Below are positions 12,182 through 26,640 of a stretch of 26,640 nt of DNA, one piece after another. The position numbers and the translations under genes are program-made. Numbering within the stretch: position 1 is the stretch's first letter; every line of letters begins with the position of its first letter. Source of the stretch: a virus. The notes beneath the pieces are model-generated. The model saw only the letters and a list, made by a program, of their open reading frames with translations, ran no database searches and was not told the DNA's origin. The stretch is taken from positions 1-26,640 of IMG/VR virus record IMGVR_UViG_3300029923_000329. One strand, written 5' to 3'.

Positions 12182-12210
12182 TTGTGTGGGTAGGAGTCTT
12201 CGCTTAGGAT
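12182..12210 (+). promoter_or_regulatory. Candidate promoter for phoH operon
   Basis: TTGTGT (12182-12187) and TAGGAT (12205-12210) are 17 bases apart. The -10 lies in the loop of an inverted repeat (12193-12219). The chosen PhoH start is 40 bases after the first base of the -10, similar to the spacing at the first fibre gene and the CobT-like gene. Confidence 0.5.
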
Positions 12211-12219
12211 GAAGGCTCC
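12193..12219. repeat. Inverted repeat around the phoH -10 box
   Basis: GGAGTCTTC (12193-12201) pairs with GAAGGCTCC (12211-12219) with one G-U pair and a 9-base loop containing TTAGGAT. No T-tract follows. It could be an operator or the remnant of a terminator. Confidence 0.55.
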
Positions 12220-12244
12220 CAACCCATCTGCGGGACACACCCTC

Positions 12245-13069
12245 ATGACTTACCCTTCCAGCAAAAACGGCAACAAAAAACCTCAATCGCGTCAAAAAGG
12301 CCGCACCGAACGTCGCAGCAAGGACAGCAATGCCCGTCTGCACGATCAAGCGAGCCTTGATATTGCCGCGCATGAAGCAGCGTTGCAGTGCAAGGGCCGG
12401 GACACATCGGCGATTGAAGGCCGGAATCCAAATCAGAAACGCTACATTGCTGGTATCAAAAGCTCGCCGATCACCATTGGCGACGGCCCTGCTGGCGTTG
12501 GTAAGACCTGGCTGGTAGCCGCCCTGGCTGCTGAAATGCTGGAAGCCAAGGAAATCGACAAGATTCTGCTGACCCGCCCAGCCCAGGAAGCTGGCGAGAA
12601 GTTGGGCTTTCTGCCCGGCGAGAAAGAAGAAAAATACGAACCCTACCTGCAACCGTTCCGTGAAGCCCTGGAAGAACGCCTGGGCAAGAGCACGCTGGAA
12701 TACTACCTGAAGGTCGGCAAGATCGAAGGCGCCCCGCTCGCTTACATGCGCGGCCGCACCTTCAAGAACTGCCTGATGATCCTCGACGAAGCGCAGAACA
12801 CTTCGGCCGTTCAGATGAAGATGTTTCTCACCCGTGCCGGTGAAGGCTCTCGCATCGTCGTCAATGGCGACTTGGCGCAACAAGACACCTTCGGCGAGTC
12901 GGGCTTGAAAGTCGCCAAGCGCAAAGTCGGCTACCTGCCGTCGGTGAAGCTGGTAGAGTTCAGCACCGCCGATGTGGTGCGCTCCGGGCTGGTGCAAGAG
13001 GTGCTTGAAGCCTGGGAAGCCCCAGAGCTGCCGCCGAACGAGCTGACCAGCAACGTGAAGGAAGTCTGA
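12245..13069 (+). CDS. phoH: PhoH-like ATPase
   Basis: This 274-residue protein belongs to the PhoH family of P-loop ATPases, common in phages and linked to RNA metabolism. Walker A is GPAGVGKT at residues 81-88. LLTRPAQEAGEKLGFLPG is the conserved PhoH block after it, and Walker B is LMILDEAQNTS near 176-186. The later block VVNGDLAQQD carries the sensor region. The first 60 residues are basic and probably disordered (SRQKGRTERRSKD), perhaps for nucleic-acid contact. ATG at 12245 is chosen because the alternative ATG at 12209 falls inside the promoter's -10. It stands alone between a promoter and a terminator. Confidence 0.92.
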   Translation: MTYPSSKNGNKKPQSRQKGRTERRSKDSNARLHDQASLDIAAHEAALQCKGRDTSAIEGRNPNQKRYIAGIKSSPITIGDGPAGVGKTWLVAALAAEMLEAKEIDKILLTRPAQEAGEKLGFLPGEKEEKYEPYLQPFREALEERLGKSTLEYYLKVGKIEGAPLAYMRGRTFKNCLMILDEAQNTSAVQMKMFLTRAGEGSRIVVNGDLAQQDTFGESGLKVAKRKVGYLPSVKLVEFSTADVVRSGLVQEVLEAWEAPELPPNELTSNVKEV

Positions 13070-13958: not shown

Positions 13959-14308
13959 ATGATCAAGACCAAATCCGCCGCGACCAGATCGAACAGGGTC
14001 GCAAAATGGGCCGCTTAGGAGTCCCTGAGCGCATCGAAGTGCTGAACCCGGACTACAATCGCCCTCGTTGCAAGCCTAGCCCGCCCAAGCAACTCACAGG
14101 GCACGAGGCGTATATCGAGAACCTTCGGACCTCGGCTGCTGAAGTGAAGCTGTATCTGGTGGGCAACATTTCGTCGGTCGGCGTGGTGCGCGCTGCTGAC
14201 AAATACACAATCAGCATTGCGACAGCCGACGGCACGGTGGAAGTCGTCTTCAAGAGCGGCATCGTGAAGTTGGTTCCAACAAAACGAGGGGTCAAGAAAA
14301 ATGACTGA
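13955..14308 (+). CDS. Hfq/Sm-like protein (candidate)
   Basis: This is a 117-residue protein with a charged N-terminal extension of about 48 residues and an Sm-like core at about 50-111. The core lines up with E. coli Hfq almost without gaps. EAYIENLR corresponds to DPFLNALR, VKLYLV to VSIYLV, and Gly76 to the conserved Sm1 glycine. DKYTI corresponds to DQFVI, and VVFKSGIVKLVPTKR to MVYKHAISTVVPSR. The latter is the bacterial Sm2 motif: Lys100 keeps the proximal-face lysine, while the usual His becomes Ser101 and Tyr becomes Phe99. A two-residue insertion lies between the Sm1 and Sm2 parts. Hfq forms RNA-binding hexamers that pair small RNAs with mRNAs. The gene is coupled to the unknown protein before it and overlaps the helicase by eight bases. 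The alignment was made by eye; the Sm call is likely and the RNA role inferred. Confidence 0.8.
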   Translation: MNDQDQIRRDQIEQGRKMGRLGVPERIEVLNPDYNRPRCKPSPPKQLTGHEAYIENLRTSAAEVKLYLVGNISSVGVVRAADKYTISIATADGTVEVVFKSGIVKLVPTKRGVKKND

Positions 14309-15728
14309 AGTTGCTGAAAAATCTGTAGCTGAAGCGACCGCGTCGATGGCTGCAATTCTCGGGGCATCATTCTCGGGCGGGGCGGTCCCGACTGGCCCGG
14401 CAACGCCGCCAGAAGAAGAGGTCGAGCGCTTTGAATTTGACACCGACTTTCAGAGCAAGATCGCCGCCCACGTTCTTGGCGACTATGGCTTCATGCGTCG
14501 GGTCGGCCAGCTCATTCGCCCCGAATACTTCGAAGGTATCGGCGATGCAGCTATCGTCAACATGGCGCTGAAATACTGGAACCGATACGGTCAAATCGCG
14601 CCGAAGTCGAGCCACGGCGTGCTGCTGAAGGCTGAAATCGACGGTGGGGCTATCCGTGGAGACGCAAAGGGTGAAGCGATCACCGCGATCAAGCGACTCT
14701 GGCAAGAAGACCTGGCCGGCGGTCTGCACGCTGCCGAGCAAGTGGCCGACTTCTGCAAGCACCAAGCGATGACCCAGGCGATTCTTTCGTCGGTCGATCA
14801 CCTGGGCAAGAAGAAGTTCGACAAGATCGAAATGGCCGTGAAAGAAGCGCTGGCCGTGGGCATCAACGAGGACGGTGACGCATACGACTACTTCGAGCGC
14901 ATTCAAGAGCGAACCGAAGAGCGCATGGACAAAGCTGCCGGTAAGGTGCCGCCGCAGGGCGTGACGACCGGGTTCCCGAAGATGGACGACGTGCTGTATC
15001 ACCGGGGCTGGGGCAAGAAAGAGCTGTCGGTGCTCATGGGCGGCGCCAAGTCTGGTAAGACCACGGCAATGATCGGCTTCGCCAAGTCTGCATCGCTGGC
15101 CGGTAAGAACGTGCTGTATGTCACCCTTGAAGTATCGGCCAAGATCATTTCGGAACGTCTCGACGCAAGCATGTCGGACAACATGATGAAAGAGCTTGGC
15201 AAGAACATTGTCGATATTGACACCAAGATTCGGGACATTCACAAGCGCGCCGGGTGCCTGAAAATCCACGAATATCCGCCAGGATCGTTCACCCCGTCGC
15301 AGCTCACCCGCCTGATCGACTCCTACGAAGCGAAGGGCATCTTCCTCGAGCTGGTGGTGGTCGACTACGCAGACATCATGGCGCCCGATCACCGCATCAA
15401 CGACCCAATCGAGAACTCGAAGAACGTCTACATCGGCTTGCGTGCCGTTGCGTTCGAGAAGAACGTTGCTGTTTTGAGCGCGACCCAGTCGAACCGGGAA
15501 GGCTTCAAGGCGACAGTGGCAAAGGCCGAGCACATCGCAGACGACTTCAACAAGGTGCGTATCGTCGACTTGCTCATTTCGATCAACATCACCGAAGAGG
15601 AACGAGCCAACGGCGAAGCACGTCTGTTCTTCGCAGCGAGCCGTAACCAAGAGTCAAACTTCACGATCTTCATCAAGACGGACATCGCCAGGATGAAGTT
15701 CATCGTTTCAATCCTAAAAATCGAGTAG
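14301..15728 (+). CDS. Replicative DNA helicase, DnaB family
   Basis: This 475-residue protein is a hexameric 5'-3' helicase type that unwinds DNA ahead of the replisome. After about 40 flexible residues comes a DnaB N-terminal-like helical domain (about 45-190, with LIRPEYFEGIGDAAIVNMAL). A linker and RecA-like domain follow, beginning TTGFPKMDDVLYHRGWGKKE. Walker A is GGAKSGKT at 247-254, Walker B is LVVVDYADIM near 350, and ATQSNRE near 395 is the Gln/sensor motif. The C-terminal block SRNQESNFTIFIKTDIARM fits the family. The ATG overlaps the Hfq-like gene by eight bases. The length matches bacterial DnaB (about 470). Confidence 0.92.
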   Translation: MTEVAEKSVAEATASMAAILGASFSGGAVPTGPATPPEEEVERFEFDTDFQSKIAAHVLGDYGFMRRVGQLIRPEYFEGIGDAAIVNMALKYWNRYGQIAPKSSHGVLLKAEIDGGAIRGDAKGEAITAIKRLWQEDLAGGLHAAEQVADFCKHQAMTQAILSSVDHLGKKKFDKIEMAVKEALAVGINEDGDAYDYFERIQERTEERMDKAAGKVPPQGVTTGFPKMDDVLYHRGWGKKELSVLMGGAKSGKTTAMIGFAKSASLAGKNVLYVTLEVSAKIISERLDASMSDNMMKELGKNIVDIDTKIRDIHKRAGCLKIHEYPPGSFTPSQLTRLIDSYEAKGIFLELVVVDYADIMAPDHRINDPIENSKNVYIGLRAVAFEKNVAVLSATQSNREGFKATVAKAEHIADDFNKVRIVDLLISINITEEERANGEARLFFAASRNQESNFTIFIKTDIARMKFIVSILKIE

Positions 15729-15919: not shown

Positions 15920-17059
15920 ATGGCAACCCACATCAGCAAGCGCGGCCGGGATGGCGACAACGAACTTGAAGAAGCTCTGGCACAAATTGACCTTGAAGGT
16001 TGGCTAGACGCCGAGGGGATCGACTATAAAATTGGCCGTGGGCACTCTGGGGTTCAAATAAATTTACGCGAATGTCCGCTTTGTGGTCATGACAAATGGA
16101 AAACTTACGCGAACGCTGAGACAGGTTTGGGTAAGTGTTTCGTGTGTGAGCAGGGCTTAAACCGATGGAAGATCATCAACGGGTTCACCCCTGGTATGGG
16201 CGGGCGCGAGACGGTCGACCACATCAAGAGCTACGCACGCACCCAGGGCTGGGTAGCCAAGAAGACAACCACGGTCGCCGTGAACCTTGAAAGCGACCTG
16301 ATCATTCCGCAGTCGGTTGCCTTACCGGTGGGCGGGCGCAACCTGGGCTACCTGGACAATCGGAACATAACTGGGGCATACAGCGAGTATTTCGGCTTCA
16401 GGTTCTGCGTGCGCGGCGGCTTCAAATACATCGACCACAACGGTCGGCCAAAGGTGCAGAACTACGACAGCCGCGTGATCATCCCGGTATTCGACATGCA
16501 AGGGGAGCTGGTCAGCTTCCAGGGTCGGGACATCACCGGCAAAGCAGATTTGAAGTATCTCTTCCCGCCTGGATTCGCGTCGACCGGCGCCCACCTATAC
16601 AACGGCCAGAACGCAATCGGAGCCAAGCGTATCGCCATCGGAGAGGGTGCATTCGACGTCGCGGCAATCAAGATCGCAATCGACAAAGACATGTCACTGC
16701 GCGACATCGTGCCGGTCGGCACCTTCGGTAAAAGCCTTTCGTTCGGCGACGAAGATAGCCAAATGGCGAAGCTGATGTATCTGCGCGACAAAGGACTGCA
16801 AGAGGTGATCTTTCTATGGGACGGCGAGGCCAAAACAATCCTTGCCGCGATTGAAGCGGCGTTGCGGGTTCGAGGTATGGGATTGACAGCCCGGGTCGCC
16901 GTGTTACCGCTAGACAAAGACCCGAACGAAGTTCCAGAGACTGTCGTTCAATCTGCCATCTGGAAAAGCACGGTGATCACACAGACGTCTGCTGTGGCGA
17001 TGAAGTTGAAATACAGCATTCTCGCCAGCAGTAAGTCCAGCCGCTCATTGCTACGATGA
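15920..17059 (+). CDS. DNA primase with zinc finger and TOPRIM domain
   Basis: This 379-residue DnaG-type primase makes RNA primers at the fork. The N-terminal zinc finger is CPLC at 52-55 and CFVC at 73-76 (C2C2). A helical and beta region follows, with the primase-like stretch SRVIIPVFDMQGELVSFQGR near 185-205. The TOPRIM part has IAIGEGAFDV with Glu242, then FLWDGEAK with Asp301 and Glu303 where DxD is usual. VAVLPLDKDPNEV is the typical primase motif after it. There is no helicase-type Walker motif, so it acts with the separate DnaB-like protein. ATG at 15920 has AAAGG about nine bases upstream. At 379 residues it is shorter than bacterial DnaG and has little room for a helicase-binding C-terminal domain. 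Confidence 0.9.
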   Translation: MATHISKRGRDGDNELEEALAQIDLEGWLDAEGIDYKIGRGHSGVQINLRECPLCGHDKWKTYANAETGLGKCFVCEQGLNRWKIINGFTPGMGGRETVDHIKSYARTQGWVAKKTTTVAVNLESDLIIPQSVALPVGGRNLGYLDNRNITGAYSEYFGFRFCVRGGFKYIDHNGRPKVQNYDSRVIIPVFDMQGELVSFQGRDITGKADLKYLFPPGFASTGAHLYNGQNAIGAKRIAIGEGAFDVAAIKIAIDKDMSLRDIVPVGTFGKSLSFGDEDSQMAKLMYLRDKGLQEVIFLWDGEAKTILAAIEAALRVRGMGLTARVAVLPLDKDPNEVPETVVQSAIWKSTVITQTSAVAMKLKYSILASSKSSRSLLR

Positions 17060-18150: not shown

Positions 18151-19536
18151 TTGAACAGCACCCAAATTCTTGAAGCCCTCGACCTGATTGCGGCGGCGAA
18201 ACCGAAAGAAAAGCTGGTTATTCTCGCCAAGCATGCTGAAGACCCCGAGTTCAAGCGCGTCCTGAACGCTGCCTACAACCCTTTCATCACCTTCGGCATC
18301 AAGCCGCAGCGCGTGTCCGGTCATGGCAAAGAAGACTTCACCGATGAAACGTGGTCAACCCTGAGCGCCCTGGCGAATCGCAAGCTGGTCGGCAACGACG
18401 CCAAAGGCACCTGCGACAGAACCATGGACCGGCTGAACGGCGCTTCTGCTGAATTGTTCTGGCGGATCAGCAACAAAGACCTGAAGGCCGGGTTCGGCGA
18501 GTCCACCATCAACAAGGTGCTCAAAAACTTCATCCCCGAATTCCCATACATGCGCTGTTCGTTGCCGAAGGCTGTAGACCTGGGCTCGTGGGACTGGGAA
18601 GGCGGCATCATCAGCCAGGTAAAACTGGACGGCCGCTTCACCAACGTCAACGTCGAGCCTACCGGCGAGGTCGCACTGACCTCTCGCCAGGGCAAGGCGA
18701 TGCCAATCGAGAAGTTCCCGCAGATCGCCCACGACCTGCGAGTTCGCGCTCCACGCGGCACCCAGAGCCACGGTGAAATGCTGGTGATGAAAGACGGCAA
18801 GGTTCTGCCGCGTCAGGTCGGCAACGGCATGATCGAAAAAGTGTGCGAGGGCGGCGAGTTCGAAGAGGGCTGCACCCCGGCACTCCAACTCTGGGACAAC
18901 ATCCCACTGTCGTGCGTGGTCAAGAAGGGCAAGTGTGTAACGCCTTACGCGCTTCGCCTGGGCTCGCTGCTGAAGGCGTTCAAAGATTGCGAGACGGTCA
19001 GCGTTGCAGAGACCCGCATCGTCAAATCCATCGGCGAAGCTGTCGAGCACTTCCTTGAAGTGTTGAAGCGCGGCGGTGAAGGCACCGTGGTCAAGCGCAA
19101 GGACGGCGTCTGGGAAGATACCGGCGGCAGCGGCAGTATCTATCAGGTTAAGATGAAAATCGCAGCCGAAGTGGAGCTGAAAATTGTCGGCTACCGTGAA
19201 GGCAAAGAAGGCTCAAAGCGCGAAGAGACCATCGGCGCCCTGCTGTTACACTCTGGCGACGATCTTCTCGAAGTGGGCGCCGGTTCCGGCCTGAAGCAAG
19301 CCGACCTTGATCGCTATGCGGCAGACCGCGAAGGCAATCTTGGTGGAATCGTGACTATTCAGTTCAACGACATCATGGAGCCGAGCGAGTCGAACGAGCT
19401 GCATTCGTTGTTTCTGCCGGTATTCATCGAGCACCGCTTCGACAAGTCGACCGCAGACGACCTTCAGACCATCAAGGCTGTGCTGGCTGAAGCGAAGACC
19501 GGTAAGGAACTGCTGACCGCGAGCAAGAAGAAATGA
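18151..19536 (+). CDS. ATP-dependent DNA ligase
   Basis: This 461-residue protein seals nicks using ATP. TTG at 18151 is the start: AGGAG (18139-18143) lies seven bases before it and no better codon exists. Motif I is SQVKLDGRF with the adenylated Lys158, and motif Ia is LTSRQGK. Motif III contains SHGEMLV with Glu209, motif IV is GGEGTVVK (Glu310 to Lys315), and motif V is YQVKMK with Lys334 and Lys336. The N-terminal 140 residues are helical, as in T4-like ligases (487 residues in T4). The C-terminal 115 residues form the OB-fold, ending in a Lys-rich tail. It would join Okazaki fragments made by the phage replisome. The stop overlaps the next start (ATGA). Confidence 0.94.
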   Translation: MNSTQILEALDLIAAAKPKEKLVILAKHAEDPEFKRVLNAAYNPFITFGIKPQRVSGHGKEDFTDETWSTLSALANRKLVGNDAKGTCDRTMDRLNGASAELFWRISNKDLKAGFGESTINKVLKNFIPEFPYMRCSLPKAVDLGSWDWEGGIISQVKLDGRFTNVNVEPTGEVALTSRQGKAMPIEKFPQIAHDLRVRAPRGTQSHGEMLVMKDGKVLPRQVGNGMIEKVCEGGEFEEGCTPALQLWDNIPLSCVVKKGKCVTPYALRLGSLLKAFKDCETVSVAETRIVKSIGEAVEHFLEVLKRGGEGTVVKRKDGVWEDTGGSGSIYQVKMKIAAEVELKIVGYREGKEGSKREETIGALLLHSGDDLLEVGAGSGLKQADLDRYAADREGNLGGIVTIQFNDIMEPSESNELHSLFLPVFIEHRFDKSTADDLQTIKAVLAEAKTGKELLTASKKK

Positions 19537-20219: not shown

Positions 20220-22103
20220 ATGAAGCCAAAAAGAATGAAACACGACAGGATTTTTGTCCTTCGTGAGTCAATTGTGAAGATTGCGCAAATGCTGTCCGGC
20301 AACAGCATCAAAGTTACCCAGCGCGGCGTGTCTGCTTACGTCGAGCCAGACGCGAGCGGTAAGCCGGTGCTGATCAACCTGCCATTCATCCCCGACAATG
20401 CGACTGAAGAGCTTTGTGAAGCGATCCAGGGCTTTCTCGACCATGAAGTGGCTCACTGCTTGTTCACCGACTTCAAAGCCTTCAACGCGATTGCAGCGAA
20501 CAAGCCGCTACATGGCATGGCTAACCTTCTCGAAGACGCCCGCATTGAAAAGGCGATGGCGGATAGGTTCACCGGGTGCGGCGGCAACCTGAGCAACACT
20601 GGTGAGTTCTTCCTGAACAAATACACCATCCCGAAAATGCAAGAGGCTGACTTGGCCGGTGACAAAGAAGCGATGGTCGGCGTGCTGTCGGTCCCGCTGA
20701 TCAGGTCTATGGCTGGGCAGCGCGTGTTCAGCGAGTTCATGCGCGGCAAAGAACACCACGTCGAGGACTTCTACGACAAGATCAAAGACCTCAAGCCAGA
20801 CATCGAAGCGATGAAGTCGACCGCTGACGCAATCACGCTGGCTCGCGAGATTCGCAAGCGTATGGGCGCTGAAGAGGAAGAGGAAGAAGGCGGCGGTGGC
20901 CCGCCAAGCCCGAAGGCGGGCAAGGGCAAGGGTGGCGGCAAAGGCAAGGGTGGCTTACCAACTCCCGGCGAGGGCGCCGGTGAAGAAGAGGAAGAGGCTG
21001 GTGCCGGTGAAGAAGAGGAAGAGGGCGAAGAGGGTGGCCCTGGAACCGGCGAGGGAGAAGAAAACTGGGATGACGACGAAGACGTCAAAGGCATGGCCGA
21101 GACTGACCCGCTCGCATCATTGCGCGCAATCGACAAAGAAAACGCCAACGGCTTTGACGAAGAAATGTCCCGTCAAATCGGCGTAGACGCCGCAAAAGCA
21201 GCGAAGCATGCCGAATACTTGGTCTACTCGACCGAAGAGGACGTGATAGAGCCGCTGGTTATCGGTTCTGGCTACGAAGACAGCATGTTCACCAAGTTGG
21301 AAGACAAGGTTCAGCACATGGTTGGCCCGCTGCAAAAAGACCTTGAGCGGGCAATCGTTGCCCGGTCGCGAGCAACCTTCAGCGGCGGTCACCGTTCCGG
21401 CCGACTGCACGGCGCCGGGCTGTCGAAGCTGCTGGTCGGCGATGATCGTGTTTTTCGTCACAAGGAAGAGAACACCTCCAAAGACGTAGCCGGTTCGCTT
21501 GTGATCGACGTTTCTGGGTCAATGGGCGGCGCCAAGATTCACCTGGCATCCCAAGCTGCATACGCGGTGAGCCAGGTTCTCGACCGACTGAAGATCAGCC
21601 ACGAGGTGATCGCGTTCACCACCGGGCCGAAGATTTGCGGCAGCGCAACGCTTATGGCTGACGAAGAGAAGCGCATGGGCCGGAGCTTCACCCGCACCGA
21701 GTCCATCTACATGCCGATTCTCAAGGGCTACAACGAGCGCATCGGCACCGAGACCAAAAAGCGCTTTGGTTGGTTGCCGCACAGCCGCATCATGCGCAAC
21801 AACGTCGACGGGGAATCTATCGAGAAGGCAGCTCGCCGCCTTCTGGCTCGCAAAGAGGTCGGCAAGTTCATGATCGTGCTTAGCGACGGCTCCCCAGCTT
21901 GCGCTGGTGATAGTGCTCGCGCCTCCAAGCACCTGAAGCGCGTGATCAAGGACTTGATCAATACTGGCATCAACGTGATCGGTATTGGCATCCAAGATAG
22001 CTCGGTGACTGAATACTACCCGAAGAGCATTGTGATCAACGACGTAGACGAACTGCCATCCCGGGTTGTTCATGAGCTGCGAAACATGCTCATGCCGAAG
22101 TAA
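20220..22103 (+). CDS. cobT: CobT-like protein with HExxH and VWA domains
   Basis: This is a 627-residue protein. Residues 1-215 include HEVAH at 75-79, a zinc-protease-like HExxH, followed by HGMANLLEDARIEKAM near 98-113 that could supply the third metal ligand. Residues about 215-300 are a low-complexity Glu/Gly/Lys linker. The C-terminal 200 residues form a von Willebrand A domain with MIDAS DVSGS at 430-434 (within SLVIDVSGSMGGAKIH). VLSDGSPACAGDS comes later as another metal-site loop. Bacterial CobT with CobS is a cobaltochelatase part. Phage copies lack the rest of that pathway and pair with a CobS-like ATPase, as here. A chaperone or remodelling role, perhaps with proteolysis, is inferred. 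ATG at 20220 has only a poor ribosome site (GAGAAT). Confidence 0.87.
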   Translation: MKPKRMKHDRIFVLRESIVKIAQMLSGNSIKVTQRGVSAYVEPDASGKPVLINLPFIPDNATEELCEAIQGFLDHEVAHCLFTDFKAFNAIAANKPLHGMANLLEDARIEKAMADRFTGCGGNLSNTGEFFLNKYTIPKMQEADLAGDKEAMVGVLSVPLIRSMAGQRVFSEFMRGKEHHVEDFYDKIKDLKPDIEAMKSTADAITLAREIRKRMGAEEEEEEGGGGPPSPKAGKGKGGGKGKGGLPTPGEGAGEEEEEAGAGEEEEEGEEGGPGTGEGEENWDDDEDVKGMAETDPLASLRAIDKENANGFDEEMSRQIGVDAAKAAKHAEYLVYSTEEDVIEPLVIGSGYEDSMFTKLEDKVQHMVGPLQKDLERAIVARSRATFSGGHRSGRLHGAGLSKLLVGDDRVFRHKEENTSKDVAGSLVIDVSGSMGGAKIHLASQAAYAVSQVLDRLKISHEVIAFTTGPKICGSATLMADEEKRMGRSFTRTESIYMPILKGYNERIGTETKKRFGWLPHSRIMRNNVDGESIEKAARRLLARKEVGKFMIVLSDGSPACAGDSARASKHLKRVIKDLINTGINVIGIGIQDSSVTEYYPKSIVINDVDELPSRVVHELRNMLMPK

Positions 22104-22111
22104 CCGCCAGC

Positions 22112-22142
22112 GCAGGGCGCTTTATCTTCCTAAGCGCCCTGC
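22112..22142 (+). terminator. Large hairpin between CobT- and CobS-like genes
   Basis: The perfect 11-bp stem GCAGGGCGCTT/AAGCGCCCTGC with a 9-base loop lies directly upstream of TAGAAT. No T-tract follows, so it may be an attenuator or an RNA processing site rather than a full terminator. Confidence 0.6.
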
Positions 22143-22149
22143 ATAGAAT
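22121..22149 (+). promoter_or_regulatory. Candidate promoter for CobS-like gene
   Basis: TAGAAT (22144-22149) is a good -10, and TTTATC (22121-22126) a poor -35 at 17 bases that lies inside the hairpin. The gene start is 49 bases downstream. Confidence 0.4.
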
Positions 22150-22192
22150 TAAACTATTGCATACCGGGCGATTTGCCCCACTGGAGAAAACG

Positions 22193-23431
22193 ATGACCGT
22201 GCCAACCCAAGACGACAAAATCATCTGCAAGATCGACGGCGCACCGACGCATTCGATCAGCATGTATCTGCGAAACAACCACCCGGAAATCACCCTGGCC
22301 GAGTATCAGGAGAAGTTCCCAGGTGAGCCAATTATCTCCCCGTATGCCCAGCATCTGATGGATGAAAAGGCGAAGAAGACCGCGACCGAAGCAGCAGAAG
22401 CGACGAGCACGCCGGAAGTTGCAAAAAAGGTTGAAATGGTTGGCACGGCAGAGAAGCCAGCGGCAAGCGTGTCCTCCCTGGTGACCCCGGGCAGCATCAC
22501 CAAGCAGCCGTTTCATGAAGTCTTCGGCCTGGGCAAGATCAAACAGGCGCTGTCGTCACGCGGTGATGAAATTCCGATCACTGTGCTGTCGGCCCATGAG
22601 CCTGCTAACCAAATGTTCGTGCCGAAAGCCAACGACACCTACGTCTACGACATCGACGAGTTGAAGAACGCCATCATGGCTATCGACTTGAACATCCCGT
22701 GCTACATCTGGGGCCACAAAGGCACCGGCAAGTCGGAACTCTGGGAGCAGATCGGCGCCCGCACCAACCGTCCGCACTTCCGTGTTCAGCACACCGGCAA
22801 CACCGAAGAGTCGCACGTTGTCGGTCAATGGACTGTAAAGAACGGTCAGACTGTGTTCGAGCTGGGCCCATTGCCCCTGGCAATGAAAAATGGCTGGATG
22901 TATGTCGCAGACGAATACGACTTCGCGATGCCATCGGTTCTCTCTGTGTATCAGGCGGTGCTGGAAGGTAAAGCCCTGGTAATCAAAGAAGCCGACGTCG
23001 AGAATCGCGTTATTCATCCGCACCCGAACTTCCGATTCGTAGCCACCGGCAACACCAACGGCAGCGGCGATGAGACCGGGCTGTATCAGGGCACCACCTT
23101 GCAGAACTCGGCGAACTACGACCGTTTCGGCATGGTAGTCCACAAGAAATACATGGCCGCTGCTGCTGAATCGCTGATTCTGCAACGTCGTCTGAAGATG
23201 GTCGCGGCAGACGCTGACAAGCTCGTGTCCTTTGCAAACTCGGTGCGCGAGGCTTACGATGCTTCCAAGATCAGCGAAACCATTTCGCCCCGGACCCTCA
23301 TCTTCGCAGCGACAATCGGCATCAAACGCGGCTCGTTCGTGCAGGGCGTGACTTTGTCCTACATCAACAAGCTGACCAAGATCGACGCCGAAGCGGTAAA
23401 GGGTATGGCAGAGCGCATCTTCGGCAAGTAA
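22193..23431 (+). CDS. cobS: CobS-like AAA+ ATPase
   Basis: This is a 412-residue MoxR/CobS-type AAA+ ATPase. ATG at 22193 has GGAG (22183-22186) six bases upstream. The N-terminal 50 residues (ICKIDGAPTHSISMYLRNNH, then LAEYQEKFPGEPIIS) match the small domain found at the start of CobS proteins. A flexible Ala/Glu/Thr linker follows at about 60-100. Walker A is GHKGTGKS at 174-181, and Walker B is MYVADEYDF with Asp240 and Glu241. The sensor region is VATGNTNGSGDETGLYQGT. Ring ATPases of this family act with VWA partners, here the preceding gene. Bacterial CobS serves cobalt insertion; no other cobalamin gene is present, so the target here is unknown. Confidence 0.9.
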   Translation: MTVPTQDDKIICKIDGAPTHSISMYLRNNHPEITLAEYQEKFPGEPIISPYAQHLMDEKAKKTATEAAEATSTPEVAKKVEMVGTAEKPAASVSSLVTPGSITKQPFHEVFGLGKIKQALSSRGDEIPITVLSAHEPANQMFVPKANDTYVYDIDELKNAIMAIDLNIPCYIWGHKGTGKSELWEQIGARTNRPHFRVQHTGNTEESHVVGQWTVKNGQTVFELGPLPLAMKNGWMYVADEYDFAMPSVLSVYQAVLEGKALVIKEADVENRVIHPHPNFRFVATGNTNGSGDETGLYQGTTLQNSANYDRFGMVVHKKYMAAAAESLILQRRLKMVAADADKLVSFANSVREAYDASKISETISPRTLIFAATIGIKRGSFVQGVTLSYINKLTKIDAEAVKGMAERIFGK

Positions 23432-23487: not shown

Positions 23488-24141
23488 ATGAACACTCCAG
23501 GATGCTACGGCGCCGCAAGCGCCTTCAGTCACGACTCGGCTACCTGTCAGGGTTGCCCGCACTTCACGCCATGCGCCGGTCTCTCGCTGGAGAGGCTCCA
23601 GGCCATATCTGGCACCATCAACGTCACCGACTTGCTCAAGAAGCACGAGCGAGCGCAAGCAAAGGCCCGCCCAGAGCGCGCACAACGTCACCAGAGCGAC
23701 GAAACCCGAGACTTACGCATAGTGCAAAGGGCGGCGCCCATCGAGCCCCCACAGCGCAAGACGCAGGTCGAGAAGGTCACGTTTGAAATAAACACCGAGA
23801 CCCGGCAGCTCATCGCCAACATCACCAACAAAAAAGCCCAGGCTCACGCGCTAATTCTGTGCAAGGGTCAAGACCTGCAAGACCTAATAGACCGCTTCGG
23901 CGCTGGTGAGAACCCAATGCCAGCATCGCCAAAGTGGCTGCATCAGGTGGGCGAAGAACTGCTGGCCGGAAAGATCAACCGGCAGAACCTGAAGGTGAAC
24001 CTGGCGCAGCAGCAGCAATGGGGTGAAGCCACCGCCGGTTCGCACGTTTCGATAGCTTGGTCCATGTTTATAGGGCTTGGCATAGCTGTGGAGCAAGAGG
24101 GCTCAATGCTTCTTTCTCCAAGGGTCGGTGGTCACAATTGA
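23488..24141 (+). CDS. Unknown protein with N-terminal cysteine cluster
   Basis: This is a 217-residue protein. ATG at 23488 has GAGG about five bases upstream. Cysteines at 6, 20, 23 and 29 (C-x13-C-x2-C-x5-C, in CYGAASAFSHDSATCQGC and FTPC) form a compact cluster that could bind zinc or an iron-sulfur cluster. Similar short clusters occur in phage proteins near CobS/CobT-like genes, to my recollection. Residues about 50-95 are basic and flexible. The C-terminal part holds TRQLIANITNKKAQAHAL near 107-125 and a Gln-rich LAQQQQWGEA, with helical character. It sits between the CobS-like ATPase and the polymerase. Function is unknown. Confidence 0.8.
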   Translation: MNTPGCYGAASAFSHDSATCQGCPHFTPCAGLSLERLQAISGTINVTDLLKKHERAQAKARPERAQRHQSDETRDLRIVQRAAPIEPPQRKTQVEKVTFEINTETRQLIANITNKKAQAHALILCKGQDLQDLIDRFGAGENPMPASPKWLHQVGEELLAGKINRQNLKVNLAQQQQWGEATAGSHVSIAWSMFIGLGIAVEQEGSMLLSPRVGGHN

Positions 24142-24162: not shown

Positions 24163-26640
24163 ATGAACATTAACCACCACTTATCAGCGCGCTCTGATTT
24201 TTCGGTCGGCGAGTCGCTGTTGCAGGTGAAGAAACTTGTCACCGCAGCTAAGGCCGCAGGATATGAAAGTGTCGCCCTGGTAGACACGATGAGCATCCAT
24301 GCCATTGTCGACTTCACCGCCCAGTGCAAGAAGGCGGAAATCCGCCCGATCATTGGCTGCACACTGCGCGTGGTCGAAGACCCAACGCACCGCAAGCCTT
24401 CAAAGGCCAGCGGCATCGCGGACAAGCCAAACCCTGGCTACCAGCTCAAGGTCTACTGCAAGACCGAAGCCGGTGTGCAATCGCTGTTCAAGCTGTTGAG
24501 CCGCGCCAACTCGCCGGAATACTTCTACTACGTGTCTCGCGTCGGCCTAGATGATGTTCTGGCGCTAGAGGATGTGATCGTCACTACCGGCGACTTCTAC
24601 GGCCTGTTCGGCAGCAAAGACGTGAAGCATCCTGGCGGCATCGCAATCGCGCTCAAGGTGCGATTCGGCGATGACTTTCTGGTCGAGCTGACCCCGGGCG
24701 ATACGCCGCTCTACGACACGGTCAACGCGCGCTGCATAAAGGTCGCCGATGCTCTGGGCATCCGAACGATTGTTGGCTACCCTTCGCTTTATGTCGCGAA
24801 CGCAGAAGCGCCGACGCTTCAGGTTTTGAACTCGATCACGACCAACACGTCAATGGACTCACCGTGGCGCCCGAAGCAGCACGTCGTTGACTTCGAAGTG
24901 TCACCGCCGGCCAAGCTGCTTGAGCGGGTTAAGTCTTCTGCTAAGCGCATGGCTACCTTCACGGGTATCGTGTCGGCGTCGACCTGGGCAGATTCCCTGG
25001 CGAACATCCAGAAGGTGGTCGACGAGTGCGCCTACCGTTTCGAGAAGATGCCCGTCAGCCTTCCCAAGATGGCAGAGAACGAATTCGTAGAGCTGGGCCG
25101 ACAGTGCGCCGAAGGCTGGAAGCGCCGCTTCGGCGCTGAAGTCCTGGGTCACCAGCCGCTCACTTCAGAACTGCCGGTATACGCCGCTCGCTTGAAGTAT
25201 GAAATGGGCGTGCTGAAGTCTATGGGCTTCGCTGGTTACTTCCTGCTTGCCGCTGACCTCGTGAACTGGTCGAAGGCTAACGACATCATCGTCGGCCCAG
25301 GTCGTGGTTCGGTGGGCGGCTCCCTGGTTGCGTATCTGGTCGGGATCACCGAGGTGGACCCTGTTCGCTTCGGCCTGATGTTCGAGCGTTTCATCAACCC
25401 CGAACGTCTCGACTTGCCCGACGCCGACCTCGACTTCATGTCGAGCAAACGCCATTTGGTTATCGAATACCTGACCAACAAATACGGCGCCGAGCGCGTT
25501 GCCGGTATCTCCAACTATTCAACCCTGGGTTCGGCGTCTGCATTGCGTGACGCCGGGCGCATGCACGGGCTGAACCCGCTTGAGCTGTCTTGCAGTAAGC
25601 TGGTGCCAGCAGAACACGGGATCAGCTTCAGCCTGACCGAGTCGGCCGACATGGTTCCTGAAATCGCGAAGTTCCGCGATGAGCGATCCGACATCTGGGC
25701 TCACGCCCTGAAACTTGAGGGCACGATTCGTTCCTTTGGGCAGCACGCCGCCGGGTTGGTGGTGGCCGGTGAACCAATCACCAATCGCGCGGTGCATGAA
25801 ACGCGCGGCGACAGCGCCATCGTCAACTGGGACAAACGCTCCGTAGAGGACTGGGGGCTGGTCAAAATGGACTTGTTGGGTCTGTCGACCCTCGACGTTC
25901 TGGAAATTGCCCGCCAATACATCAAAGAGCGCCACGGTGTCGACGTGATCTACACCAAGATTCGCCTTGACGACGAAGACGTGATGAAAGCGTTCAGCGC
26001 TGGCGAGACGACTGGTGTGTTCCAGTTTGAATCCCCAGGTATGCGCAAGCTGTTGCGCGACCTGGCAGTAGGTGGGTTGCTCACCTTCGCAGACATCACG
26101 GCGGCGACCGCGCTCTACCGCCCGGGCCCAATGGACTCCGGCCAGCTTGAAGACTTTGTGCAGATTCGCCAGGGTCACCGGTCGCCGTCGTATGAGCACG
26201 CCCTGATGGAGCCCGTTCTCGAAGAGACGAATGGGGTTATCACCTACCAAGAGCAGGTGATGCAGCTCGCGGTTCACTTGGCCGGCTTCACCGGCGCCGA
26301 GTCTGACCACCTTCGGAAAGCGATGGGTAAGAAAGACGCTGACAAAATGTCTGAAATGCGCGCCAAGTGGATTGACGGCTGCGAGAAGACGGCGGGCATG
26401 CTCCCGGCGAACTCCGGCAACCTGTTCGACAAAATCCTCGCGTTCGCTGGTTACGCATTCAACAAGTCCCACTCCGTTGAATACTCCATCATTTCGGTTT
26501 GGACGATGTGGGTGCGCGTGCGCTACCCAGCGGAATACTTCGCCGCAAGCCTGTCCATCGTGTCTGAAGAGAAGCTGACCGGGTTGGTGCGTGATGCGCG
26601 CTCGTGCGGTATCGAAGTTCTACCGCCAGACATCAACTAC
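24163..26640 (+). CDS. dnaE: DNA polymerase III alpha-type polymerase (3' end outside window)
   Basis: This is the first 826 residues of a DnaE-like replicative polymerase. The frame is open to the window edge. ATG at 24163 has GAGGAGA seven bases upstream. Residues 1-70 align with a PHP domain, but HHLSARSDFSVGES replaces the metal-binding HxH core and ALVDTMSIH replaces the ALTDH-like block, so PHP activity is doubtful. Fingers/palm motifs are intact: GPGRGSVGGSL near 377-387, then LPDADLDF with Asp420 and Asp422 as the likely catalytic pair, and KMDLLGL with Asp570 as the third acid. ATALYRPGPMDSG and FNKSHSVEYS are also typical. It would copy the phage genome with the helicase and primase upstream. 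Confidence 0.94.
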   Translation, partial: MNINHHLSARSDFSVGESLLQVKKLVTAAKAAGYESVALVDTMSIHAIVDFTAQCKKAEIRPIIGCTLRVVEDPTHRKPSKASGIADKPNPGYQLKVYCKTEAGVQSLFKLLSRANSPEYFYYVSRVGLDDVLALEDVIVTTGDFYGLFGSKDVKHPGGIAIALKVRFGDDFLVELTPGDTPLYDTVNARCIKVADALGIRTIVGYPSLYVANAEAPTLQVLNSITTNTSMDSPWRPKQHVVDFEVSPPAKLLERVKSSAKRMATFTGIVSASTWADSLANIQKVVDECAYRFEKMPVSLPKMAENEFVELGRQCAEGWKRRFGAEVLGHQPLTSELPVYAARLKYEMGVLKSMGFAGYFLLAADLVNWSKANDIIVGPGRGSVGGSLVAYLVGITEVDPVRFGLMFERFINPERLDLPDADLDFMSSKRHLVIEYLTNKYGAERVAGISNYSTLGSASALRDAGRMHGLNPLELSCSKLVPAEHGISFSLTESADMVPEIAKFRDERSDIWAHALKLEGTIRSFGQHAAGLVVAGEPITNRAVHETRGDSAIVNWDKRSVEDWGLVKMDLLGLSTLDVLEIARQYIKERHGVDVIYTKIRLDDEDVMKAFSAGETTGVFQFESPGMRKLLRDLAVGGLLTFADITAATALYRPGPMDSGQLEDFVQIRQGHRSPSYEHALMEPVLEETNGVITYQEQVMQLAVHLAGFTGAESDHLRKAMGKKDADKMSEMRAKWIDGCEKTAGMLPANSGNLFDKILAFAGYAFNKSHSVEYSIISVWTMWVRVRYPAEYFAASLSIVSEEKLTGLVRDARSCGIEVLPPDINY

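Follow-up and report, generated by a model that had tools for sequence, protein, structure and literature searches.

A CobS/CobT-like gene pair on a viral contig probably encodes a MoxR-type protein remodeller with a protease-like domain and not a cobaltochelatase

Viral cobS and cobT genes have repeatedly been counted as auxiliary metabolic genes for vitamin B12, and T4-like cyanophages have cobS among their core genes (PMC3037559). The window analyzed here, a stretch of 26,640 nucleotides from a viral contig (IMG/VR record IMGVR_UViG_3300029923_000329), carries such a pair, consisting of a CobT-like VWA protein and an adjacent CobS-like AAA+ ATPase, and raises the question whether the two proteins belong to a vitamin enzyme at all. 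The results indicate that the pair is probably a viral MoxR-type AAA+ ATPase (CobS-like) with a VWA adaptor (CobT-like) bearing a gluzincin-like HExxH domain, i.e. a remodeller instead of a cobaltochelatase. Proteolysis, as suggested by motif and predicted fold, is the least certain step of this reading. If the reading is right, the 'metabolic gene' label that has been repeated so widely for phages is mistaken. The pair has the following parts (positions in the window; aa, amino acids; MIDAS, metal ion-dependent adhesion site):

20220..22103, + strand: CobT-like VWA protein, 627 aa (phrog_1576, 'unknown function'; open reading frame, Pfam and phrog match)
20220..20864, + strand: gluzincin-like N-terminal domain by prediction, aa 1-215 (AlphaFold2 model and structural matches to zinc peptidases with Z 5.5 and below)
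20442..20456, + strand: HEVAH (HExxH), aa 75-79
20523..20549, + strand: NLLEDARIE, aa 102-110, with N102 and D106 co-varying with HExxH
20865..21119, + strand: acidic and Gly-rich linker, aa ~216-300 (from the sequence)
21450..22091, + strand: CobT-type VWA domain, aa 411-624 (PF11775, E = 1.4e-38)
21507..21521, + strand: MIDAS DVSGS, aa 430-434
22157..23431, + strand: CobS-like AAA+ ATPase, likely start at ATG 22193
22205..22330, + strand: ROS/MucR-like zinc-finger region, N-terminal on the ATPase (PF05443, E = 0.004, under the cut-off)
22706..23068, + strand: AAA_5 domain
22712-22735: Walker A GHKGTGKS, in the AAA_5 domain
22901-22915: Walker B YVADE, in the AAA_5 domain

An earlier note, made from the letters of the window, had described both reading frames, the HEVAH and NLLEDARIE motifs, the acidic linker and the MIDAS-bearing VWA domain, and all of them were found again at these positions. 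In Pfam, homology to CobT covered both the VWA domain (CobT_C, PF11775, E = 1e-38) and the N-domain (PF06213, E = 2e-9) of the 627-aa protein. The class of the ATPase is read from its Pfam matches to AAA_5 (E = 8e-19) and CbbQ_C only; it also matched phrog_249 (E = 3e-92). Its Walker A (GxxGxGK) and Walker B (ADE) residues are invariant among six ATPase relatives, which agrees with the intact CobS-like ring proposed before. As in MoxR-VWA systems, the AAA+ ATPase gene adjoins a VWA gene with a MIDAS. The listed TTG start of the ATPase at 22157 is probably too early, with an in-frame ATG at 22193. A finger pattern C-x2-C-[GN]..H..H is present in most CobS-like relatives, and its second Cys is an Asp in the window and in the Rhizobium phages.

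Is the protease-like motif more than a chance match? The combined pattern HExxH-x(12-45)-NxxxDxx[hydrophobic][E/N/D] was found in 148 of 5,505 open reading frames, every one of them viral CobT-like (148/148), while shuffled CobT-like sequences matched it twice in 34,000 trials; the two-part motif is therefore beyond chance. Since one contig scan had itself picked peptides spanning the motif, conservation was counted in loci reached via the neighboring CobS-like gene, a selection independent of the motif. This CobS-anchored set holds 65 distinct CobT-like proteins, many of them related and thus not 65 independent observations: HExxH was present in 54 and absent in nine, and two proteins were cut short. 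Eight of the nine are near-copies from one Acinetobacter phage-plasmid lineage (QEVAK), and the ninth carries a single change (HEVAR). N102 and D106 were present in every HExxH-bearing protein of the set, and one or the other was also altered where both histidines were lost. The conservation survey, which had been named beforehand as a possible refutation, thus found the motif kept overall (54 of the 63 testable proteins in this set); across all viruses compared, three lineages have lost both histidines. The CobT-like genes of loci L066 and L069 are split, with the HExxH domain and the VWA domain on separate reading frames, and were rejected as motif losses; the gene of HHTV-2 is likewise split (PMC8651126). 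A single-protein scan of viral contigs gave no match because the chosen peptides were lineage-specific.

The motif also extends over large distances. We observed HExxH in Salmonella SSU5, a Klebsiella phage, two Rhizobium phages, Roseobacter CRP-810 and the cobavirus-type T5S1, in Vibrio ICP2, Gordonia SteveFrench and cyanophage S-RIM2, and further in the haloarchaeal HVTV-1, Prochlorococcus phage P-HM1 and a Microcystis phage, and HExxH together with NxxxDxxI[E/N] is conserved over viruses of bacteria and archaea. In hhalign, both motifs were aligned for P-HM1 (probability 95%), HVTV-1 (96%) and the Microcystis phage (97.5%), and S-RIM2, T5S1 and CRP-810 reached 96-98.5%. Such strong conservation of five residues (H, E, H, N, D) over very distant viruses is difficult to account for unless a metal site is under selection. 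It therefore speaks against the explanation that the pair is a MoxR-VWA chaperone without proteolysis, in which the N-domain would be a structural or substrate-binding relic whose residues hold a metal or the fold with no cutting.

AlphaFold2 modeled the N-domain from 68 viral sequences with a predicted local distance difference test (pLDDT) of 94.3 and a predicted template modeling score (pTM) of 0.90. In this model, helix 63-82 carries HExxH and helix 95-116 carries NxxED, and both come after one helix and three short strands, an order that also occurs in gluzincins. The nine best chains in VIA-align were zinc peptidases throughout (Z 4.1 to 5.5), with jannalysin on top (Z 5.5, root-mean-square deviation 3.1 Å, 98 residues aligned) and matches to ZMPSTE24, M48, abylysin, selecase, M32 and M1 among the others. 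Among the predicted viral proteins of BFVD, the top 29 matches were nearly all viral CobT/VWA proteins, haloarchaeal ones included, or unnamed. Judged by its sequence relatives, D106, perhaps together with N102, is the likelier partner of the two histidines, because these residues co-vary with HExxH and E105 is replaced in ICP2, where D106 is kept. The earlier proposal that NLLEDARIE could complete a zinc site is compatible with this co-variation and with its position on the next helix of the model, where N102, E105 and D106 are the candidate ligands.

Several results weigh against this reading and have to be set beside it. All VIA-align Z scores are below 8, a level called common by the tool itself, and Foldseek against the PDB yielded no match below E 0.4. 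Structure prediction of aa 1-215, a check proposed in the earlier note, hence gave a confident model with gluzincin-like order but no significant structural neighbor; by Z the likeness to gluzincins is weak, and the argument for it is the consistency of the top VIA-align rows. Helix 95-116 offers three candidate third ligands to choose from, and the ICP2 and Gordonia proteins were not significant by hhalign. The alignment used for the fold (A4) was built with a motif-containing pattern, and the statement on conservation therefore rests on the CobS-anchored set only. Finally, both histidines are lost in three viral lineages that still keep the gene pair, namely Pseudomonas phage nickie (SEISK), a Stenotrophomonas phage (REVST) and the Acinetobacter phage-plasmids (QEVAK). 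Therefore, either remodelling can stand alone or those lineages changed their target, and any proteolysis would be dispensable in some lineages. The Acinetobacter lineage (L132-L142; plasmid hits H161-H166; 128 plasmid records), in which the pair is kept with QEVAK and SLLEEARVE, is, on its sequence, a case in which the putative metal site was lost naturally.

The same three lineages support a chaperone without proteolysis, together with Staphylococcus and Listeria phages, in which a CobS-like ATPase is paired with a DUF7192 protein (PF23822) lacking HExxH (L302:4704-6680, L303:4746-6594), and with cellular CobT, which retains the predicted fold without the motif. Given the conservation described above, we regard this explanation as unlikely. 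A weak match links DUF7192 to the VWA region of the Gordonia protein.

A quite different answer would be that the pair is indeed metabolic. A cobaltochelatase function of viral CobST has been proposed (PMC8651126) and was assumed for cyanophages (PMC2984593, PMC3037559) and Roseobacter phages (PMC11288001): viral CobST and host CobN would insert cobalt into the corrin ring and thereby raise cobalamin for nucleotide synthesis. In agreement with this, the homology to CobT across both domains, and to CobS, is real, CobN is present in some hosts (rhizobia), and Synechococcus and Haloferax have a PF02514 protein. However, no virus record tested contained CobN (PF02514), neither that of the window nor 14 named ones, and two viral contigs lacked it as well. 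It was also not found in E. coli, a host of relatives, even though the CobT-like relative is on 229 plasmid records of Escherichia. The claim of the earlier note that no other cobalamin gene is present consequently holds for CobN in the window record, the sole cobalamin gene looked for. Scores were far under the NCBIfam equivalog cut-offs, with 99.6 bits vs 759 for CobT (TIGR01651) and 120.1 bits vs 558.6 for CobS (TIGR01650). Moreover, HExxH is conserved in the viruses and was absent from the N-domain in 130 of 130 alphaproteobacterial CobTs, and the viral genes are located in replication modules. Without CobN in viruses and E. coli, with low equivalog scores and with DNA polymerase III alpha as a constant neighbor, a cobaltochelatase role of the viral pair is unlikely, and we give it a very small chance. 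A protein remodeller that is driven by ATP, carries a protease-like domain and has ties to replication is more likely than a B12 enzyme. The idea of a MoxR-VWA machine with an HExxH motif, put forward in the earlier note, is supported by the distant conservation, the gluzincin-like predicted fold, the co-variation of the second motif and the missing CobN; the targeted cleavage during infection that the note also suggested is a prediction from motif and fold.

Cellular CobT itself helps to understand the N-domain. The solved structure (PDB 9uka), which was found by sequence and is absent from the fold-search results, has DSMALR and DAVEQARVE at the motif positions. In a model of the cellular N-domain (pLDDT 96), the elements follow one another in the same order, and mini-gluzincins were again the best structural matches, with Z about 5. 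Because predicted fold and matches are shared and the motif is absent, CobT seems to be a form of this domain that lacks the metal site, which suggests that the CobT subunit of the vitamin enzyme carries an inactive protease fold. Cellular CobT forms one clade in a VWA tree (SH-aLRT, Shimodaira-Hasegawa-like approximate likelihood ratio test, 100), a quick midpoint-rooted tree with very long cyanophage and Gordonia branches that leaves the direction between viral and cellular proteins unsettled. HE..H stretches in three cellular CobT reading frames were rejected, as they lie upstream of the gene. Among 29 hand-picked alphaproteobacterial genomes with CobT (PF06213; G002-G098), 17 show no CobN (PF02514), although some may be incomplete; Caulobacter vibrioides has CobT and no CobN. 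Cellular CobST may thus have a role outside cobalamin synthesis. Lower-ligand activation is the function of an unrelated enterobacterial enzyme that is also named CobT. A phage CobT has been described by this function (PMC11288001).

What could a remodelling machine do for the virus? The surroundings of the pair give a hint:

12209-13069: PhoH-like ATPase, upstream of the replication genes
14301..15728, + strand: DnaB-like helicase
15920..17059, + strand: DNA primase
18151..19536, + strand: ATP-dependent DNA ligase
23488..24141, + strand: phrog_3616 protein of unknown function, present in 69 of 80 CobS-anchored loci
about 24163..26640, + strand: DNA polymerase III alpha subunit, continuing beyond the window

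The polymerase gene, which begins downstream of the region covered by the earlier note, was found in 66 of the 66 CobS-anchored loci with enough downstream flank. The pair is on one strand in 76 of the 80 loci, nearly always within 150 bases. In cyanophages it sits between gp46/gp47 and the genes of sliding clamp (gp45) and clamp loader (gp44), and the pairs of ICP2 and T5S1 have genes for primase, helicase or polymerase within a few kilobases. Because the neighbors of the pair are replication genes, the evidence favors an action around DNA replication. This position argues, if only indirectly, against a virion assembly or maturation machine that remodels and trims structural proteins, as was guessed for jumbo phages (PMC7824862): in the groups examined, the pair is among replication and not virion genes. 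With a published proposal for a similar architecture and a MoxR-VWA precedent in archaeal virus tail formation, this reading is not without a basis, yet we consider it very unlikely.

In MoxR-VWA systems, the VWA domain captures a substrate peptide and the ATPase transmits a conformational change via helical, charged linkers (PMC7159879). The acidic linker of the CobT-like protein fits this mechanism. In the remodeller that we prefer, the ATPase ring would spend ATP on pulling or reshaping a protein bound at the VWA MIDAS site, and its action would pass through the flexible acidic linker. In the motif-keeping lineages, that of the window included, H75, H79 and an acidic residue of the following helix (probably D106) would coordinate zinc, and the zinc-bearing N-domain may then cut the MIDAS-held protein. 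The target would probably be a protein that acts at the stage of replication or of host takeover.

Wss1/Cdc48 and SPRTN/p97 each combine a zincin protease with an AAA+ partner at replication forks. They resemble the viral pair in the way they work only; the ATPase class is another one, a VWA domain is lacking and on present evidence they are not homologous. An analogous replication-fork machine, with an AAA+ ring that is tethered to DNA by its ROS/MucR-like finger and feeds DNA-bound proteins to the zinc peptidase so that the viral polymerase can pass, and with CobT as an inactivated relative, is an attractive but improbable extension.

The architecture of a MoxR-VWA pair with metallopeptidase is already known once. 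Group 2.2 jumbo phages have a MoxR-VWA pair with an N-terminal metallopeptidase, for which a role in virion assembly was proposed (Iyer et al., 2021; PMC7824862). It shares the ATPase beside a VWA protein with this N-terminal domain and is likened to the window pair by architecture. The description consists of one sentence that leaves CobS unmentioned, and the window pair adds the CobT-type VWA domain, the position in a replication module and the ROS/MucR-like finger. On the other side, cobST was found to be widespread in tailed viruses and read as cobaltochelatase, and the 'peptidase' label of the cyanophage protein was called a mistake (Liu et al., 2021; PMC8651126). Judging from our results, the architecture described by Iyer et al. 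seems to be that of the viral CobST of Liu et al., and 'peptidase' may be the better label for the cyanophage protein. A search of the available literature library found no paper that combines phage CobS with MoxR.

The cyanophage 'peptidase' (phrog_459) and 'CobS' (phrog_249) share adjacency, HExxH, NxxED, the VWA MIDAS and the position at replication genes with the window pair, but phrog_459 is only about 19% identical to the window protein and no Pfam domain was found in it. Cobaltochelatase CobS/CobT (TIGR01650/TIGR01651; PDB 9uka) has a homologous ATPase and VWA protein with the same predicted N-domain fold, whereas cellular CobT lacks HExxH and NxxED and the CobN partner is missing from the viruses. 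The minigluzincins jannalysin, abylysin and selecase, the best structural matches, have the HExxH helix followed by the ligand helix, but their Z to the window N-domain is weak and they have neither VWA nor ATPase partner. The putative metallopeptidase family PF13203 (DUF2201_N) combines HExxH..NxxxDxxIN with a following VWA domain, and one example adjoins a MoxR-like ATPase. Despite the same motif layout it was rejected as parent family, as there was no significant profile match to the window protein and hhalign with one member gave a probability of 0.8%. A weak sequence match to AcrIIA26 covered hardly anything beyond the NxxED helix and is apparently coincidental.

Existing annotations assign many of the pairs in the named viral relatives to cobalamin or porphyrin genes, or to a 'peptidase' together with CobS. 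The CobT-like relative is also found on about 1,000 plasmid records, chiefly from Klebsiella, Escherichia and Acinetobacter. In HVTV-1, a second HExxH protein (L304:1809-2525, annotated as SprT-like) is encoded a few genes from the ATPase-VWA pair.

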